Origin: Methanomicrobiales archaeon
Lineage (GTDB): Archaea; Halobacteriota; Methanomicrobia; Methanomicrobiales; JACTUA01
Reading direction: 5' to 3'
Assembly: GCA_029907705.1 (NCBI GenBank)
Contig: JARYLJ010000012.1
Coordinates: 1 to 47,017 of the forward strand
Length of the DNA: 47,017 bases
Shown: positions 970 through 9,088 of the stretch, piece after piece
Position numbering within the stretch: the stretch's first letter is position 1
How the letters are laid out: each line of letters opens with the position of its first letter
Program-made: the position numbers and the translations under genes
The notes under the pieces: model-generated
Seen by the model: the letters and a program-made list of their open reading frames with translations, nothing else
The model's database searches: none
Told to the model about the DNA's origin: nothing

Positions 970-1917
970 TCATAAGAACCCGAAGGATTTCAGGGTCACC
1001 TCTGGATTGACACGCCCCACATGATAAACGGCGCCTTCAGAGAGCTCGTTGATCACGACCTCTGCCGGAGAGAAGAGGGAGGTGTCGATCTTGTAGAAGT
1101 CGAAGTTCGCCTCCTTGAAGATGTCGTAGAATGGTTTTCCATATCCCTTCGATTTGTTGCTCGGTATTCTCTCCAGGTATTCCTTTATCTCGGGCGCCTT
1201 CATCGTGAGCATGATGCTCCCATGGTAGATGGTCGCATCGTTCGTGGAACCCATCGCCCGCGTACCATCCTTCTTCACCGGTGCGATGGGTGCGCAGCCG
1301 ATGCCGGCGATCACCTTCCGGGTATCGAAACCCAGCTCGTTCAGTCTGTAAATGGCGGTCTCCACACATCTGCCGGCGACCTGGATGGATCCCACGATGG
1401 ATGCGGTGGGGGCGACGACCGCGCAGCTATTCGCCACCTCCACCCCGCATTCCTCGGCGATCTTCTCCATCACACTGCTGTTCGGTAGCTTCTCGCTCTC
1501 GAGGGCGATCACCGCATAGTCGAAGTCATCCTCGTAATCGATCACCTCGTATGTATGTTTCGGCTTGAGCGAGAGAGCCCGTGCAGGACCGCTCCCCATT
1601 GCGAAGAAATTTCCCATCTTGACGGTCCATCCGGCCTTCTGCGCCCCCAGACAGGCGATCGCCGGATAATCGGTGCTGATCTGGATGAAGGGCAACGGCG
1701 TCTGCCCGACCCGGCCCATGAAGAACGCGGCCTCGCCGAGTCCACCCATGCATATCTCGGTAAAGCGTTTGCCTGCGAGATATCCACCCGATGTGCTCAC
1801 TCCGCAGTCGACGATCCTCGAGCCATTATCGAGCTGGTGGAATACCGCATTGAAGTCCTCGGGATAGTCCACCATATCATCGAAGAGATCCAGTGCTAGT
1901 TCGTTCACACTGATCAC
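970..1917 (-). CDS. mch: Methenyltetrahydromethanopterin cyclohydrolase
   Basis: A 315-residue soluble enzyme that interconverts 5-formyl-H4MPT and 5,10-methenyl-H4MPT in the C1 branch of methanogenesis or its reversal. The N-terminus (SVNELALDLFDDM) and inner blocks such as QISTDYPAIACLGAQKAGW, FFAMGSGPARAL and the GIGCAPIAPVKKDGTRAMGSTND segment are characteristic of Mch, and the length matches the family. The start codon is GTG at 1917, chosen because it gives the family-typical N-terminus. It lies downstream of orc1/cdc6 in the same direction but is separated by 273 bases, so it probably has its own promoter. All expected regions are present and I see no truncation. Confidence 0.96.
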   Translation of the reverse strand: MISVNELALDLFDDMVDYPEDFNAVFHQLDNGSRIVDCGVSTSGGYLAGKRFTEICMGGLGEAAFFMGRVGQTPLPFIQISTDYPAIACLGAQKAGWTVKMGNFFAMGSGPARALSLKPKHTYEVIDYEDDFDYAVIALESEKLPNSSVMEKIAEECGVEVANSCAVVAPTASIVGSIQVAGRCVETAIYRLNELGFDTRKVIAGIGCAPIAPVKKDGTRAMGSTNDATIYHGSIMLTMKAPEIKEYLERIPSNKSKGYGKPFYDIFKEANFDFYKIDTSLFSPAEVVINELSEGAVYHVGRVNPEVTLKSFGFL

Positions 1918-2190: not shown

Positions 2191-3315
2191 TTATTTCAGC
2201 CTTGAAAGGACCTGCTCCGGCTCGTATCGGAGGCTGATGAGACGCGTTCTTCCCCGCCCGTCACGATAATGCAGGTTCACCAGCCGCATCGCATCGAATT
2301 TCTTGAGCATCTCGTAAAATTTTGTGTATCCGATCGAGAGGTCGTCCTTCACCGCCGTAAAAACATCCCCTGCATTCATCTCCTCGTCCCTTAGACTCCT
2401 CTCCGCAATTTTCGCGAGGAGGGCACGCTCCTCCGATCTGAGCGCCCTGACGGTGAAATCCAGATGCAGGTTCTTCGATATCTCGTATGCACGGCATATA
2501 TCCTCCCGCTCGATCCTTCGCCTCCCCTGCATCTCCGCCTGGAGTGCCGCGCGTTTCAGGAGATCGATGCCCACCCTCAGATCACCGCTCTTCATCGTCT
2601 GCTCCACTGCGAGTTCGAACATCTTCTCGGAGAGCACCCCCGGGTAAAAACCCTGCATCACCCGCTGCTTCAGTATGTACTCCACCTCCTCCTCGCTGTA
2701 GGGCGGGAAATATATCTCCGTCGGTCTGAAGACAGATGCGACCCTCGGATCCACCGCCCGGTTCAGATCCACCGCCATATCCGACAGGATGATGATGATC
2801 CCGATTCTTGTGCCGGGGTACGATTCGTGCGATCGCAGGAGCGTGTAGAGAACCTTGTTCAATTCGTTCTCGTACATCAGGTAATTTGCATCGTCGAGTG
2901 CGACGACAAGCACCGCACCCTCCTTGAGCATGAGACGGGCGATTGCATCGAAGAGCTGCTTGAAGGAGGTGCCGGTGGCAGGTGGCAGATGCCCGGCCAG
3001 CTTCCTGTAGATCTGGGAGAAGACCGCATACTTCGTGTTGTCGATCTGGCAGTTGATGTGAACGGGGACGAGCTTCCTGGTCGATTCCTCCACCTGTGCG
3101 AAGAGCTTCCGCACACTGGTCGTCTTCCCTGTGCCGGGGAGCCCCCGGCAGATGGTGTTCAGGGGGCGCACGCCTCTGAGGCCGGGTTTGATCTGGAGCG
3201 TGAGCTCGCGCATCTGCGAATCCCGCTGGTGGAACTGTTCCGGCACGTAATCGAACTCGAAGACTTCGGGATCCCTGAAGAGCGTCTCGTCCCATCTCAG
3301 CTGCTGCCTCTCCAT
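2191..3315 (-). CDS. cdc6: Orc1/Cdc6 replication initiator (AAA+ ATPase)
   Basis: A 374-residue origin-recognition/helicase-loader protein. The AAA+ part shows Walker A (GLPGTGKTT, about residues 59-67), Walker B (VVALDDANYL, about 138-147) and a sensor-2-like arginine region near DLRVGIDLLKRA. The C-terminal third (from about residue 280) is the winged-helix DNA-binding domain that contacts origin repeats. Length and order match archaeal Cdc6 proteins. Archaeal cdc6 genes often sit beside a replication origin, but I could not recognise origin-recognition boxes in the flanking 273-base gap or upstream. The gene directly upstream (zinc-ribbon protein) is 61 bases away on the same strand and may share a transcript. 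Confidence 0.95.
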   Translation of the reverse strand: MERQQLRWDETLFRDPEVFEFDYVPEQFHQRDSQMRELTLQIKPGLRGVRPLNTICRGLPGTGKTTSVRKLFAQVEESTRKLVPVHINCQIDNTKYAVFSQIYRKLAGHLPPATGTSFKQLFDAIARLMLKEGAVLVVALDDANYLMYENELNKVLYTLLRSHESYPGTRIGIIIILSDMAVDLNRAVDPRVASVFRPTEIYFPPYSEEEVEYILKQRVMQGFYPGVLSEKMFELAVEQTMKSGDLRVGIDLLKRAALQAEMQGRRRIEREDICRAYEISKNLHLDFTVRALRSEERALLAKIAERSLRDEEMNAGDVFTAVKDDLSIGYTKFYEMLKKFDAMRLVNLHYRDGRGRTRLISLRYEPEQVLSRLK

Positions 3316-3376: not shown

Positions 3377-3955
3377 TCATGGCCTGTTCAGGCAGCTCCT
3401 GCAGAGGTCCTTGTCCTGGAAGAGCCGGCTCAGTTTCCGCTGCACCGGAGTGATCGGTACACCGCACCTCTCGCATCTGAATTCTGATGGCACCGCTGCA
3501 CTCTCATCGACGCTTTTTTTCACGGCTGCCTGCGAAGTCTCCGGATCAGGTAGCGTTCTGGGTCTGGTGGGAAAAACGGGTTCCTTGGCCACCATAATGG
3601 GTTCCTTCTCGATCACAGGGGGCGGCATTGAAGGGGCTTCCCCGGATACCACTGGCTTCGCCTCTGCCTCCGGGGTGGGCGAGACTCCCATCTCCGGGGT
3701 CTTTGGGATAACGACGGGTGGCCCGGGAGATCGGATGACCCTCTTTCGGTAACTCTCGATCTTCGCTGCCGTCTCTTCTGACCCCCTCCCAAACCTGCCG
3801 AGGATCCCGTCCAGGAATTGTATCAGCTCCTCTGCCTCCTCCTCACCTGACACCTCGCCGCTCACCTCGAGCCTTAGGTTCTCGTAATTATCGAGATTCA
3901 CTGTGATACCGACCGAGAGGTTCCTTTTGCTGCCCATATACATACATCTCTGCAT
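3377..3955 (-). CDS. Uncharacterised protein with C-terminal zinc ribbon
   Basis: About 190 residues. The first 70 form a small alpha/beta domain (NLSVGITVNLDNYENLRLEV followed by an acidic helix). Then comes a long Pro/Glu/Ala-rich linker (about residues 75-155), then a zinc ribbon with two CxxC pairs (CERC and CRSC) separated by about two dozen residues. The layout suggests a tethered nucleic-acid- or protein-binding module, but I do not recognise the family. Three ATGs lie at the start (3955, 3943, 3937). The one at 3937 gives the N-terminus MGSKRNLS and is as likely as the first. The gene is in the same orientation as cdc6, 61 bases upstream of it. Function is unknown. Confidence 0.75.
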   Translation of the reverse strand: MQRCMYMGSKRNLSVGITVNLDNYENLRLEVSGEVSGEEEAEELIQFLDGILGRFGRGSEETAAKIESYRKRVIRSPGPPVVIPKTPEMGVSPTPEAEAKPVVSGEAPSMPPPVIEKEPIMVAKEPVFPTRPRTLPDPETSQAAVKKSVDESAAVPSEFRCERCGVPITPVQRKLSRLFQDKDLCRSCLNRP

Positions 3956-3982: not shown

Positions 3983-5518
3983 TCATACCTGCGTGAAATG
4001 TGCACCCGAATTCCTCACGGAAGTGAGGATCGCGTCCCCTCCGGCTTCACCCATCACCTCGCGGGCCTCCTGGAGAAGATGAGCGTACCCCTCCTCCGCA
4101 ATCGCGTATACGGAAGGGCCGAAGGAGCTCATCCCTGCGCAGACGGCCCCCTCGCTTCTGAGCGTTTTCATCAGTTCTCTCACCACCGGTGCCTGCTCCG
4201 CAATCTCCTTCTTTTTGAAGCCCAGCTCCTGCAGTCTGTTCACAGCGGCTCCAAAGAGCTTGAGATCACGCTCCACCACACCTGGAATCATCCGCACGAG
4301 GACTTCGTGACAGATCTCCCGGACTTCCTCGACTGGAACCGGACATGCACTCCTGAATATATCCACCTCCTTTCTCCCGCTCGCACCCGGCGGCACATCC
4401 GGGGTCACGAGGATAACCCCCCACTCCTCGGGGAATGGGTGGCGTACCATCGTCATTGCCGGGTAAACTCCGGTGCTCGCTGCACTCGGTCTGAAGTCCT
4501 CCTTTGCCTTACCCGGTCCGAAGCTGTGCCCGCCATCGATCACGAATCCCCCCTGTTCGAATACAGCGGTCCCGATCCCCGAGGTGCCACCCCTTCCGGT
4601 CAGCTCTGCGAGAGACCTGACCATGCAGGATCTCCCTGCCAACCTGAATAAAGCAGAGGCCGTGGAGAGTGCAAGTGAGGTCCCGCTCCCCAGCCCCGTG
4701 TGGGATGGGATGACCCGGTGGAGGGTGATATCGGCCTTCCATGTTACCCCGAGGTGGCCGACGATCCTCTCCGCGATTGTGCGAACCTTCTCTCTCGTCG
4801 CTGCATCCCCACCTCTTACGATGGTCTCAGTGCCCATCCTCGCCTCGAGCAGGGTGGATGGCCGTTCCAGGGCCATACCGATTCCTCCATCGACTCTGGA
4901 AAGGGCCCCGCTCATCTCGATGAGACCGAGATGCAGCCGCGATGGTGCCTCCACGATCACACTCGCCCGCTCTGGAAAGAGGCGGGCAGGGAACACCTCT
5001 TGGATCGAGATGAGCGGTTTATCATGCCTGATGATGCAGTACCTTCGGGAAAGCAGGGGTTCGTCCTGATATATTCCCAAAACCTTTGAGAGCTCCTCGT
5101 CGGCATGGAGGACCTCCATGGCCGATATCTCTCTGCGGGCCTCGATTCTGTGCCTCTTCATGATGCGTCCGATCGGAATGTCTGCCCTCAGGAGGTCAGA
5201 ACGGAATACCGGTTCCAGCCTCGAAAGCGGGGTGTAGGACCTGGCGTACATGAGCGCCCTGCCGGTGGCCGCCTCCTTCATTATGACGACGCGGAGGTTC
5301 ACCTCCTCCCCATCGGCGACTTCCAGAAGTTGCGCGACCACTGCACTGGCTGGTACGATCCTCTGGACGAGTGTCTCGATCGAGATCCGGCCTTTGATGA
5401 GCGTCTCGAGCAGGGATGTGACCGAACCATCCGTGGCGAGGAGTATCCGCTGAATGGTGGACAGCCCCCCCAGTTCCTCTTCTACTCTCCCGATGAGTTC
5501 CGCGGGATCCACTTCCAT
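3983..5518 (-). CDS. Fused chorismate lyase-like domain and beta-RFAP synthase (methanopterin biosynthesis)
   Basis: A 511-residue protein with two parts. Residues about 1-183 resemble the archaeal chorismate pyruvate-lyase-type domain (DUF98/UbiC-like, as in MJ0807), which makes 4-hydroxybenzoate. Residues about 186-511 are a full-length GHMP-fold beta-ribofuranosylaminobenzene 5'-phosphate synthase (EAPSRLHLGLIEMSG at 190-204, GLGSGTSLA at 275-283, GRGGTSGIGT after 305). That enzyme condenses 4-hydroxybenzoate with PRPP at the first committed step of methanopterin synthesis. The frame is continuous with no stop or frameshift at the junction, so this is a true fusion in this sequence. The two domains act in consecutive steps. 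apgM lies 90 bases upstream in the same direction. Assignment of the second domain is firm; the first rests on pattern and length. Confidence 0.88.
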   Translation of the reverse strand: MEVDPAELIGRVEEELGGLSTIQRILLATDGSVTSLLETLIKGRISIETLVQRIVPASAVVAQLLEVADGEEVNLRVVIMKEAATGRALMYARSYTPLSRLEPVFRSDLLRADIPIGRIMKRHRIEARREISAMEVLHADEELSKVLGIYQDEPLLSRRYCIIRHDKPLISIQEVFPARLFPERASVIVEAPSRLHLGLIEMSGALSRVDGGIGMALERPSTLLEARMGTETIVRGGDAATREKVRTIAERIVGHLGVTWKADITLHRVIPSHTGLGSGTSLALSTASALFRLAGRSCMVRSLAELTGRGGTSGIGTAVFEQGGFVIDGGHSFGPGKAKEDFRPSAASTGVYPAMTMVRHPFPEEWGVILVTPDVPPGASGRKEVDIFRSACPVPVEEVREICHEVLVRMIPGVVERDLKLFGAAVNRLQELGFKKKEIAEQAPVVRELMKTLRSEGAVCAGMSSFGPSVYAIAEEGYAHLLQEAREVMGEAGGDAILTSVRNSGAHFTQV

Positions 5519-5608: not shown

Positions 5609-6772
5609 TCAGCCGCTTTCCCTGAACATCATGGGGAGAAAGTCAAGCGCGCTGATGAGGCCCAGTGCACCCCTGTTCGCGGCCCGTTCGCTGAACCCTC
5701 TGCAGCCATCCCGCCATACACCCCTGACCGCAAAAGGCACAGGGTCGGATGAATGCGTCTTCAGCCGTATGGGTGTGCAGTGATCGGTGAGCACCGCAAT
5801 GACGCCCCCGAAACCGGATGCGATCGTCCCGAGCATCTCGTCGATCCTCTCGATCGCTCTTACCTTCTCTCTGATGCTACCCATATGCGAGGCCTCGTCT
5901 GGCGCCTCCACATGCACATACACGAAGTCATGACGATCGATGGCGCGCAGGGCGTACTCTGCCTTCGCCTGATAATCGGTATCGAGGAATCCCGTTGCTC
6001 CCGGCACATCGATCACCTCCATCCCGGCGAGACGTCCAATGCCCCTGAGCAGATCCACCGCCGATATCATGCCGCCGCTGATCCCGTATCTCTCCATGAA
6101 GGAAGGTAATGCCGGCCTTCTTCCCCCACCCCATGGCCAGATCATTGTGGCCGGCCTCCTGCCGGCACCTCTCCGTGCCTGATTCACGGGATGGTTCGAA
6201 AATACACCTGCGCTCCTCTCCATCAGCGCCCTCAGCAACGGTGAATCACCACCGCGTGGAAGATGGGGGGCCACTGGCTCGCCAACGATATCGTGGGGAG
6301 GAGTGGTCTCTGCTCCTTCGCCGTGATGGACCACGAGCAGATTTCTGTAGGAGACGCCGGGGTAAAGGGAGACCGTATCCCCTGCTGCCTTCGAGAGTGC
6401 CGAAATGAGGCGTGCCCCTTCATCACCCGATATATGTCCGCTGGTGAAATCGATCATGAGGCCGTCCTCCACCGTCACCAGGTTGCAACGGTATGCGATG
6501 TCACCCTCGGCGAGTTCAATGCCCATGCTCGCTGCCTCCAGCGGTCCCCTTCCCGTGTGGTAGCGCCCCGGATTATAGCCCAGAATGCAGAGGTTGGCGA
6601 TATCGCTGCCCGGTTCGAAGCCCTCCGGGACCGTCTTCATCAAGCCGCACGCACCTTCTCTGGCGATCGTGTCCATGTTCGGCGTCTCTGCATACTCGAG
6701 GGGCGTCCTGCCTCCGAGCTCCTCCAGCGGTTCATCGCCCATCCCATCCCCGACGACGACGATGTACTTCAT
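5609..6772 (-). CDS. apgM: 2,3-bisphosphoglycerate-independent phosphoglycerate mutase, archaeal type
   Basis: About 387 residues of the alkaline-phosphatase superfamily, interconverting 3- and 2-phosphoglycerate in glycolysis/gluconeogenesis. The start at 6772 gives the typical N-terminus MKYIVVVGDGMGDEPLEELG, with the metal-binding Asp and the DxPNMDxIAREG-type motif. Further motifs are GSDIANLCILGYNP (catalytic Ser region), the IWPWGGGRRP block, YVHVEAPDEASHMG and VLTDHCTPI (metal ligands Asp/His). Longer in-frame N-terminal extension up to 6970 is Cys/Arg-rich and overlaps the neighbour, so it is rejected. Its start overlaps the end of the membrane-protein gene by 4 bases, which implies a shared transcript. 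Confidence 0.95.
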   Translation of the reverse strand: MKYIVVVGDGMGDEPLEELGGRTPLEYAETPNMDTIAREGACGLMKTVPEGFEPGSDIANLCILGYNPGRYHTGRGPLEAASMGIELAEGDIAYRCNLVTVEDGLMIDFTSGHISGDEGARLISALSKAAGDTVSLYPGVSYRNLLVVHHGEGAETTPPHDIVGEPVAPHLPRGGDSPLLRALMERSAGVFSNHPVNQARRGAGRRPATMIWPWGGGRRPALPSFMERYGISGGMISAVDLLRGIGRLAGMEVIDVPGATGFLDTDYQAKAEYALRAIDRHDFVYVHVEAPDEASHMGSIREKVRAIERIDEMLGTIASGFGGVIAVLTDHCTPIRLKTHSSDPVPFAVRGVWRDGCRGFSERAANRGALGLISALDFLPMMFRESG

Positions 6773-7239
6773 GTCCGGTACCCCAGATACCCGAGAACTC
6801 CCAACGCTGCGAGTGTGGTGATGAGGGCCGCCACGATCGTGCCCAGCGCAATTGCCGGGAATGCATACCTGAACCTGATCCCAAAGACGAAAGCAGCAGC
6901 ACATCCGCTCCATGCACCGGTCATCGGCAGAGGTACGGCGACAAAGGAGAAGAGCGCGATCGCTCCCCACCTCTCGATCCGGTCATTCTGCTTTCTCGTC
7001 CTTGCAAACAGCCATTCGAAGAACCTCCTGAAGAGGGTCATGCGCCCGCTCAACCATGTCGAGACCGGATCGAGGAGCAGCAGGAGTGGAACAACAGGAA
7101 GCATGTTTCCAGTGATACCGAGAAGAAACGCCTCCTGTGGTGAGTATCCACTGATGATCGCCGCCGGTATGGTGTACCTCGCCTCGAAGAAAGGGACCGC
7201 TGCGAGAAGGAGCACGTACAGCGCTGCCACCGCATCCAC
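6769..7239 (-). CDS. Small multidrug-export-family membrane protein (COG2426-like)
   Basis: A 156-residue integral membrane protein. It has about four hydrophobic segments, with the motif PFFEARYTIPAAIISGYSP near residue 16 and a central basic loop (RKQNDRIERWG). The second half has VAVPLPMTGAWSGCAAAFVFG. These features match the Sm_multidrug_ex/COG2426 family, whose transport role is poorly established. It sits between the epimerase (4 bases upstream) and apgM (overlapping by 4) in one leftward operon. Substrate cannot be inferred from the sequence. Confidence 0.85.
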   Translation of the reverse strand: MDAVAALYVLLLAAVPFFEARYTIPAAIISGYSPQEAFLLGITGNMLPVVPLLLLLDPVSTWLSGRMTLFRRFFEWLFARTRKQNDRIERWGAIALFSFVAVPLPMTGAWSGCAAAFVFGIRFRYAFPAIALGTIVAALITTLAALGVLGYLGYRT

Positions 7240-7243
7240 GCGA

Positions 7244-8176
7244 TCACTTCCCGAGCAGCGCCTTTACTGCCATCCTCACGCTCTCCCCTGACCCGACCGA
7301 AGGCCTCCATCCAAGCGATCTTATCTTCTCGATAGAGAGGAGCATCCGGGGGACATCCCCGACCCAGCCCCTCTCACCTCCGGTGAACCTGTACTCCACC
7401 CCGTCCAGACCCATCTCCTCCACCACGATATCCGCAATGCTCCTGACATCGATCCAGTCCTCAGAGCCGATATTGAAGACGTTATAACCCTTCCCGGACT
7501 TCTCCGCGGCAAAGAGAATCGCCTCCACGCAGGCATGTACCTCGAGATACGACTTTATCTGCCTCCCATCCCCGAGAATCTCGAGCGCATGCGGATTCTT
7601 TCTCAGCTTCTCGATGAAGTCCCAGCAGACGCCGTGAGTGGCCCTTTCACCGATGATGTTGGCGAACCTGAAGACGCATGCGGTGAGCCCGAACGAATGG
7701 CAGTATGCCGAGATCAGTGCCTCTGCCGCGAGCTTCGTCGCCCCGTACACCGAAATGGGCTCCATCGGCGAATAATCCTCCGGAGTTGGTATCACCCGTG
7801 CCTCCCCGTATACGGTGGAGGTCGATGTGAATACAATGGAAGGTATATCGAACCTCCTCATCGTATCGAGTACGCGTGCGGTGGCGAGTACATTGTTCGA
7901 GATTTGGGCTTCGGGGAGGATCGCACTCTCCCTGACATCCGGATCGGCGGCGACATGGTAGATGCGCGAGGCACCTTCGCATGCGTCCTGCCACCCATCC
8001 ATGGTCAGATCTGCCTGGATGAGCCTCGCTCTGCCCTCCCGCAGGTGCTGCTGTATGTTCCCGACACTGCCTGTCTTCATGTTGTCGATGACGAGCACGT
8101 CCTCGCCCTTCTGGACCAGTGCATCCACGATATGCGAACCGATGAATCCTGCGCCACCGGTCACGACACTGAACAT
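7244..8176 (-). CDS. NAD-dependent sugar-nucleotide epimerase (extended SDR, GalE-like)
   Basis: A 310-residue extended short-chain dehydrogenase/reductase. It has an N-terminal NAD-binding motif GGAGFIGS (residues 7-14), a TSTSTVYG stretch and the catalytic Y144-x3-K148 pair in SVYGATKLA. A C-terminal substrate-binding part contains NIGSEDWIDVRSIADIVVEEMG. This is the usual layout of UDP-glucose 4-epimerases and nucleotide-sugar dehydratases. The exact sugar cannot be fixed. A role in surface glycan precursor supply is plausible given envelope-glycan genes elsewhere in the window. It is the first gene of the leftward operon and is divergent from marker 12 across a 39-base gap. Confidence 0.9.
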   Translation of the reverse strand: MFSVVTGGAGFIGSHIVDALVQKGEDVLVIDNMKTGSVGNIQQHLREGRARLIQADLTMDGWQDACEGASRIYHVAADPDVRESAILPEAQISNNVLATARVLDTMRRFDIPSIVFTSTSTVYGEARVIPTPEDYSPMEPISVYGATKLAAEALISAYCHSFGLTACVFRFANIIGERATHGVCWDFIEKLRKNPHALEILGDGRQIKSYLEVHACVEAILFAAEKSGKGYNVFNIGSEDWIDVRSIADIVVEEMGLDGVEYRFTGGERGWVGDVPRMLLSIEKIRSLGWRPSVGSGESVRMAVKALLGK

Positions 8177-8215
8177 ATTTTACTAATATATCTCCTGTGG
8201 TATAGGAATACTGCT
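8177..8215. promoter_or_regulatory. Compact divergent promoter for epimerase and marker 12
   Basis: Only 39 bases separate the two starts. A TATA-like TAATATAT at 8184-8191 lies about 25 bases before the marker-12 ATG, so that mRNA would be nearly leaderless. On the other strand, AGGAG lies about 15 bases before the epimerase start. Confidence 0.45.
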
Positions 8216-9088
8216 ATGTTCATCGGAATAGACCACGGGACGACGGCCATTCGATTTGCGTCCGAGACCGGTGAATTCAAGATTTCAAGGATGAAAGCGA
8301 GGGATTTCTCCTGTTCGCAGCTCGAACGCCTCGCCCCGCTGGAGGAGATCGAGGGTATAGCGGTCTGTTACTCGATGGGAGATGGCCTCACGGAGATCAG
8401 GCCCATCGGGAGAGTCAAAAACCGTGGAGTGATCAGCCAGAAGGGTGCGGGTGAACATGTGGGTGGAGGTACCAGAGTATACGACGAGATCGCGGCGAGC
8501 GGTCTACCGGCAGTGGTGATTCCCGGTCTGCACCGGGACTCTCCGACAGACAGGCGTTTCAGGGTATACTCCCATCAGGCGAGCCCCGAGAAGATCGGCA
8601 TCGCGTACGAGGTGGTTCACGATCTCGGCCCGGATGTGGTGATCTCCGATGTCAGTTCCAACACAGTCTCCCTTCTTGTCAGCCAGAACCGCATCGTCGG
8701 TGCGATCGATGCCTGTATATTCGCGCCGGGCACCACACAGGGGGCCATCGACGTGGATGCGATTCGAAGGATAGACGAGGGAAGGATTACCGCGAACAGC
8801 GCATTCCAGCGGGCGGGTGTGAACTACCACCTCCCACCTGAAGATCGCATTCCTGCACTCTCCCTCTTCTCTGCGATGGAATGCGCTGCCCTGCAGATGC
8901 TCAACCCCTCCTCAAAGGTCGCGCTCACAGGTTCGATGGCCCCGTTCATCGCCCCGGAGGTGAAGGGGCTGCTCCGCCAGAACATCGCGGTCTATGACGA
9001 ATGGTGTGCCGCCCGAGGACTGGTCAGGATCGCGCATGATGTCTTTAATGGAGGGAGAGACATTCTCGGGATCGGAGTCGATCTGTGA
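8216..9088 (+). CDS. Methanogenesis marker protein 12 (ASKHA-like)
   Basis: A 290-residue protein. The start at 8216 gives MFIGIDHGTTAIRFA, an actin/hexokinase-type phosphate-1 motif typical of the methanogenesis-marker-12 family. Later blocks GDGLTEIRPIGRVKNRG, PGTTQGAIDVDAIRRID and VALTGSMAPF fit the same family. The family is nearly restricted to methanogens and relatives and has no settled biochemical role; the fold suggests an ATPase or kinase. A much longer upstream frame overlaps the epimerase gene on the opposite strand and is not real. Its presence supports a methyl-coenzyme-M-reductase-type metabolism in this organism. Confidence 0.92.
   Translation: MFIGIDHGTTAIRFASETGEFKISRMKARDFSCSQLERLAPLEEIEGIAVCYSMGDGLTEIRPIGRVKNRGVISQKGAGEHVGGGTRVYDEIAASGLPAVVIPGLHRDSPTDRRFRVYSHQASPEKIGIAYEVVHDLGPDVVISDVSSNTVSLLVSQNRIVGAIDACIFAPGTTQGAIDVDAIRRIDEGRITANSAFQRAGVNYHLPPEDRIPALSLFSAMECAALQMLNPSSKVALTGSMAPFIAPEVKGLLRQNIAVYDEWCAARGLVRIAHDVFNGGRDILGIGVDL

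Follow-up and report, generated by a model that had tools for sequence, protein, structure and literature searches.

The origin of the aromatic ring of methanopterin has long been uncertain, both for the ring itself (4-hydroxybenzoate or p-aminobenzoate, pABA) and for its source (chorismate or an earlier intermediate). A 4-hydroxybenzoate result for methanopterin is said to have been obtained by White in 2011, and the precursor in Methanococcus maripaludis reportedly branches off before chorismate, according to Porat in 2006. An earlier, sequence-only reading of the locus described here had treated 4-hydroxybenzoate from chorismate as the archaeal route. This is not established for methanogens in general. 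A detailed study of RFAP synthase used pABA as the substrate, whose KM near neutral pH was in the millimolar range (PMC6787355). In the same study, R26 of MTH0830 was shown to affect binding of the aryl substrate, D19 is also an aryl-substrate residue, and the enzyme was proposed as a target to reduce ruminant methane (PMC6787355).

Here we analysed a 47,017-nucleotide stretch of a Methanomicrobiales genome (contig JARYLJ010000012.1), referred to as the window, in which a chorismate lyase-like domain and a beta-RFAP synthase are encoded by one gene (Table 1). Very likely, the product of this gene is a bifunctional enzyme in tetrahydromethanopterin synthesis, acting from chorismate through 4-hydroxybenzoate to the C-riboside, and the gene has been lost whole and replaced in part of the order. 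The analysis shows the gene with its homology, predicted fold and distribution, and that relatives lack it; we infer the replacement, as well as both activities and their order, the latter two from family membership.

Table 1. Fused gene, neighbouring genes and the paralogue of the window genome
Feature	Position	Strand	Basis or remark
mch, methenyl-H4MPT cyclohydrolase, cassette end	970..1917	-	TIGR03120, 446.5 bits (cut-off 228.8); synteny
orc1/cdc6	2191..3315	-	NF001624, 547.9 bits; synteny
Gene F, uncharacterised, C-terminal CxxC pairs (zinc-ribbon-like), next downstream of the fusion	3377..3955	-	Synteny
Fused chorismate lyase and beta-RFAP synthase gene	3983..5518	-	511 aa; ORF, Pfam, NCBIfam
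C-terminal domain, residues 184-511, GHMP-type beta-RFAP synthase	3986..4969	-	NF040726; ForT-PRPP fold
N-terminal domain, residues 1-183, PF01947, Rv2949c-like chorismate pyruvate-lyase	4968..5518	-	Pfam; 2nwi match
apgM-type phosphoglycerate mutase, next upstream of the fusion	5609..6970	-	NF003242, 524.5 bits from residue 67
Divergent RFAP-synthase-like paralogue (G000:C67), 358 aa as read	L002:763-1836		Second superfamily member in the window genome

The frame runs from an ATG start to a TGA stop with no N, confirming the single intact 511-codon frame of the earlier reading, and a purine-rich AAGGGAG lies just 5' of the start codon. In the Pfam scan, PF01947 matched residues 27-180 (E 2.1e-27; 96.4 bits against a gathering cut-off of 22; model positions 1-145 of 149), followed by GHMP_kinases_N at 248-316 and GHMP_kinases_C at 410-484. 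Among the NCBIfam models, NF040726 matched residues 188-507 with 351.9 bits (equivalog cut-off 328), and TIGR00144 scored 326 bits (cut-off 113.5). The lyase domain is related to the cyanobacterial chorismate lyases of NF037993 without being a member (41.5 bits against a cut-off of 175). When searched by phmmer against the PDB, the N-terminal part found AF1396 (2nwi, E 2.8e-40) and the C-terminal part found ForT-PRPP (6yqq, E 3.2e-37). The phmmer domain matches meet at residues 185/186. Both domain identities given in the sequence-only reading, including the placement of the N-terminal part in the chorismate lyase family, were thus borne out, and its boundary at about 183/186 was correct within a few residues.

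Matches to the entire fused frame, at 48-60% identity, were obtained in more than 40 related genomes, and 19 fused proteins, scanned individually, all contained PF01947, GHMP_N and GHMP_C. Therefore, chance is excluded as the source of the fused frame. The two halves are equally conserved, with a mean identity of 52% in each. It is hardly conceivable that the fused gene is an artefact of assembly or annotation. Nothing was found in favour of an artefact; the assembly of the window genome comprises 70 contigs. The same open frame and junction recur in single-contig genomes, including Methanoculleus marisnigri JR1 (G038), and the fusion occurs in several families. An assembly error was thus ruled out by the presence of one frame in many independent assemblies.

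A full-chain AlphaFold2 model built from the 19 fused sequences was confident throughout (pLDDT 88.8, pTM 0.88). The modelled lyase half superimposed on 2nwi with a TM-score of 0.92-0.95 (rmsd 1.5), and the synthase half on ForT-PRPP with a TM-score of 0.88-0.90. R76 and E174 of the lyase half do not vary among the 19 fused proteins, nor among 13 mixed fused and standalone domains. The active-site residues of Escherichia coli UbiC are Arg76 and Glu155 (numbered without the first Met). From these and a weak hhalign alignment of the lyase domain with UbiC (E 0.0026, probability 11.6%), we infer that the catalytic Arg and Glu probably correspond to R76 and E174.

The N-terminal domain could alternatively be a non-catalytic ligand sensor of the same fold, as in the UTRA domains of GntR regulators, which gates the RFAP synthase. 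UTRA (PF07702) indeed matched residues 45-159 with 34.6 bits and was found in 16 of the 19 fused proteins, and profile searches gave weak matches to effector domains of GntR regulators. However, the PF01947 score is far above that of UTRA, the Arg and Glu proposed as catalytic do not vary across fused and standalone forms, the fused protein carries no DNA-binding domain, and the lyase homologue also occurs standalone as a single-domain protein. We therefore regard a sensor as very unlikely and favour a catalytic lyase domain.

The synthase half carries R208/D210, the phosphate loop HTGLGSG (273-279), GRGGTSGIG (308-316) and DGGHSFG (328-334). Both PRPP motifs, HTGLGSG and GRGGTSGIG, are thus present, and the majority of the motif residues are invariant in the 19 fused proteins. 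R208, likewise invariant, aligns with R26 of MTH0830, and the position of D19 is occupied by Glu201 in the window protein and in one relative (G019), and by Asp in most relatives.

In the window, the fused gene is part of a cassette with the order mch, orc1, gene F, fused gene, apgM, epimerase, marker 12 and porCA, which families f3 and f5 retain entirely or for the most part. The inclusion of mch, the gene of an H4MPT enzyme, supports a role in methanopterin synthesis. Gene F had no match in NCBIfam, and its homologues hold the same position in other Methanomicrobiales families. The listed apgM frame carries an extra N-terminus, the matching part starting near 6772. The marker 12 protein (TIGR03281, window 7535-9088) adjoins the cassette and the por genes, and its frame as listed is extended far at the N-terminus, overlapping the opposite-strand epimerase gene.

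In the proposed pathway, the N-terminal domain would remove pyruvate from chorismate to give 4-hydroxybenzoate, and the C-terminal GHMP domain would join 4-hydroxybenzoate to PRPP, yielding the aryl C-riboside 5'-phosphate, CO2 and pyrophosphate. An MptH-like enzyme would then couple the aryl C-riboside 5'-phosphate to the pterin. The fusion would have derived from separate genes such as those still apart in Archaeoglobus and Methanosarcinaceae, and its benefit may lie in supplying the two activities in equal dosage and in keeping the intermediate locally concentrated. True channelling of 4-hydroxybenzoate is no more than a possibility. The literature search found no measured activity reported for any fused protein.

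The distribution of the fusion was surveyed in 135 Methanomicrobiales genomes, each at least 90% complete, in which the canonical synthase was counted only above its cut-off. PF01947 was found in 102 genomes and the canonical synthase in 106. Both domains were present in 100 genomes, in a single reading frame as far as contig ends permit, and neither in 27, while lyase and synthase as two separate genes were seen in none of the 135. This co-occurrence of the halves (100 fused, 27 neither, 0 separate) supports a joint function. Six genomes, all of the genus Methanocorpusculum (g18), had a standalone synthase and no PF01947 gene, and two had PF01947 without the synthase, in one case at a contig end and in the other through a real truncation. 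In the latter, Methanoregula sp. SKADARSKE-2 (G323, CP121470; L302:5537-6064), the lyase half is truncated to 175 aa and the synthase half is gone, which perhaps represents a loss in progress. The Methanocorpusculum synthase (loci L151, L036 and L038) is of a different lineage and branches outside the fused clade in the synthase tree; it may have been regained through transfer. Given these standalone synthases and the SKADARSKE-2 remnant, the two activities are not strictly inseparable.

Outside Methanomicrobiales, the fusion was found in family f12 and in family f21, which we take to be Methanotrichaceae, with G119 as Methanothrix thermoacetophila and G228 as M. harundinacea. In family f7, the two genes are adjacent and co-oriented, synthase first, and overlap or are separated by less than 50 bp according to the lyase start codon chosen. 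In other families, such as Methanosarcinaceae, and in Archaeoglobus fulgidus (G148, recognised by the identity of its AF1396 with 2nwi), they lie apart; that A. fulgidus and other model archaea manage with unlinked genes is a point against the bifunctional reading. In the synthase tree, the Methanomicrobiales and Methanotrichaceae fusions were grouped with a support of 99-100. The placement of the f12 fusion in that tree had a support of 34-64, and the lyase tree was poorly resolved, so the fusion in f12 may or may not be a separate gain. The PF01947 matches of family f10 (L086, L088, L089 and L091) each contain one in-frame stop, TGA or TAA. The sequence-only reading had proposed searching for the two domains as one protein and as neighbours, and both arrangements were recovered, the former in the 100 Methanomicrobiales genomes, Methanotrichaceae and f12, the latter in f7. 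Since the domains are fused in several families and adjacent in f7, the lyase assignment is strengthened, as that reading had expected from the fusion.

An open-access literature search found no paper combining ribofuranosylaminobenzene with chorismate lyase. The fusion thus appears undescribed in the literature searched, although domain databases would display it. Each of the two domains is already known, and the recurrent loss is more surprising than the fusion.

The 27 genomes with neither domain span 12 genera, 8 of which also contain genomes that keep the fusion. Methanocorpusculum labreanum Z, a type strain with a complete genome (G055), is one of them, and it has been described as requiring only peptone, yeast extract or cysteine (PMC3035222). 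A failure of the search was rejected as the cause, as the protein, TIGR00144 and PF01947 searches were concordant and the flanking cassette persists without N and without a remnant in genomes lacking the fusion (L282-L294). In these, apgM lies near F/orc1, the gap between apgM and F being approximately 7 bp in G044 (by coordinates) and 55 bp in G041. When three fused proteins were used as tblastn queries against 14 such regions, no remnant of the fused gene was detected in any. One genome of the genus of M. marisnigri (G028), in which the fusion, the paralogue and the neighbour gene of the paralogue are all missing, possibly owing to an assembly gap, was excluded from the loss argument.

With so many relatives lacking it, which the sequence-only reading had no means of seeing, the fused gene is not indispensable in Methanomicrobiales. 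An MptH-like TIGR00284 protein was kept in all 15 fusion-less genomes tested (13 with neither domain and 2 with the standalone synthase), suggesting that methanopterin is presumably still made. The 27 genomes, with the MptH-like enzyme kept in those tested, argue against the fusion as the sole route, and another route must exist. In the proposed scheme, the whole fused gene would have disappeared from some members of the order and its work been taken over, most likely by the divergent paralogue.

The paralogue scored far below the cut-offs of the RFAP synthase models (NF040726, 75 bits against 328; TIGR00144, 68 bits against 113.5). It keeps a phosphate loop, HVGLGS, and has lost RVDGG and GRGGTSGIG; the best PDB fold matches of its model were to ForT, a PRPP C-glycosyltransferase. 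Its close relatives (>400 bits) occur throughout Methanomicrobiales and in a few Methanotrichaceae, and nowhere else in the phylum sample; those in named records belong to Methanoregula, Methanolinea, Methanoculleus and other Methanomicrobiales. By match counts, it is present in all but three draft genomes (G028, G272 and G321) of the 135, and among the 27 genomes lacking both domains it is present in 26, G028 being the exception. Outside the order, all but a handful of 247 surveyed genomes reached the canonical synthase cut-off; those below it included three of family f13 and one contaminated f9 genome. Directly upstream of the paralogue, several genomes encode a DUF2148-like protein with a ferredoxin-like CGxCGxxxC motif (L135:3317-3919, L122:3290-3841 and L129:3377-3925). 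It was rejected as a functional partner of the paralogue, the linkage being inconsistent.

The paralogue is the obvious candidate replacement for the lost fused enzyme, the alternative being some other enzyme. The pattern of presence and absence, confined to a single order, is correlative and does not prove replacement. Tentatively, and with slightly more doubt than belief, we suggest that Methanomicrobiales possess in the paralogue a second enzyme, previously unrecognised, that catalyses the committed step in methanopterin synthesis, and that its presence has allowed the repeated loss of the fusion within genera; its aryl acid would perhaps be pABA, or come from a source other than a PF01947 lyase. 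A further step would be to regard the paralogue as the main methanopterin RFAP synthase of the order and the fused enzyme as a maker of a related C-riboside for another purpose, or as a redundant second route. The near-universal presence of the paralogue, the 27 genomes with neither fusion domain, the MptH-like enzyme retained in the fusion-less genomes tested, the simple reported needs of M. labreanum Z (PMC3035222) and the ForT-like fold are in line with this. It is nevertheless unlikely, as the paralogue lies so far under the RFAP synthase cut-offs and lacks RVDGG and GRGGTSGIG, and the canonical enzyme alone serves the methanogens and Archaeoglobi outside the order, which are without the paralogue. 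A methanopterin role for the fused enzyme is preferred.

The fusion of the presumed source and user enzymes across much of the order provides strong genomic evidence for a route from chorismate to 4-hydroxybenzoate in these methanogens, and offers a single protein on which to assay both steps. The repeated clean absence of the gene, including from a complete type-strain genome, reveals a hole in the known pathway for which the paralogue is named as a candidate filler. A bypass enzyme, if present, would matter for the targeting of RFAP synthase in ruminants.

Compared with the described systems, the whole C-terminal domain, with its phosphate loop and aryl-binding Arg, resembles beta-RFAP synthases of the MptG type (MTH0830, MJ1427 and AF2089). 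However, the characterised enzymes are standalone proteins of about 315-330 aa, whereas the window protein is fused behind a lyase domain and has Glu at the position of D19. ForT, the PRPP C-glycosyltransferase of the formycin pathway (6yqq), shares fold and PRPP chemistry with the C-terminal domain at 30% identity, but differs in its acceptor, a pyrazole dicarboxylate. E. coli UbiC presumably catalyses the same reaction as the N-terminal domain, with a likely matching Arg and Glu, but its sequence similarity is very weak and it serves ubiquinone. The N-terminal domain is approximately 50% identical to AF1396 (DUF98/PF01947, 2nwi; fold rmsd 1.5). AF1396 and the Mycobacterium tuberculosis chorismate lyase Rv2949c are single-domain proteins, and the genes for AF1396 and the RFAP synthase are at separate places in their genome, whereas in the window the lyase domain is fused to the synthase.
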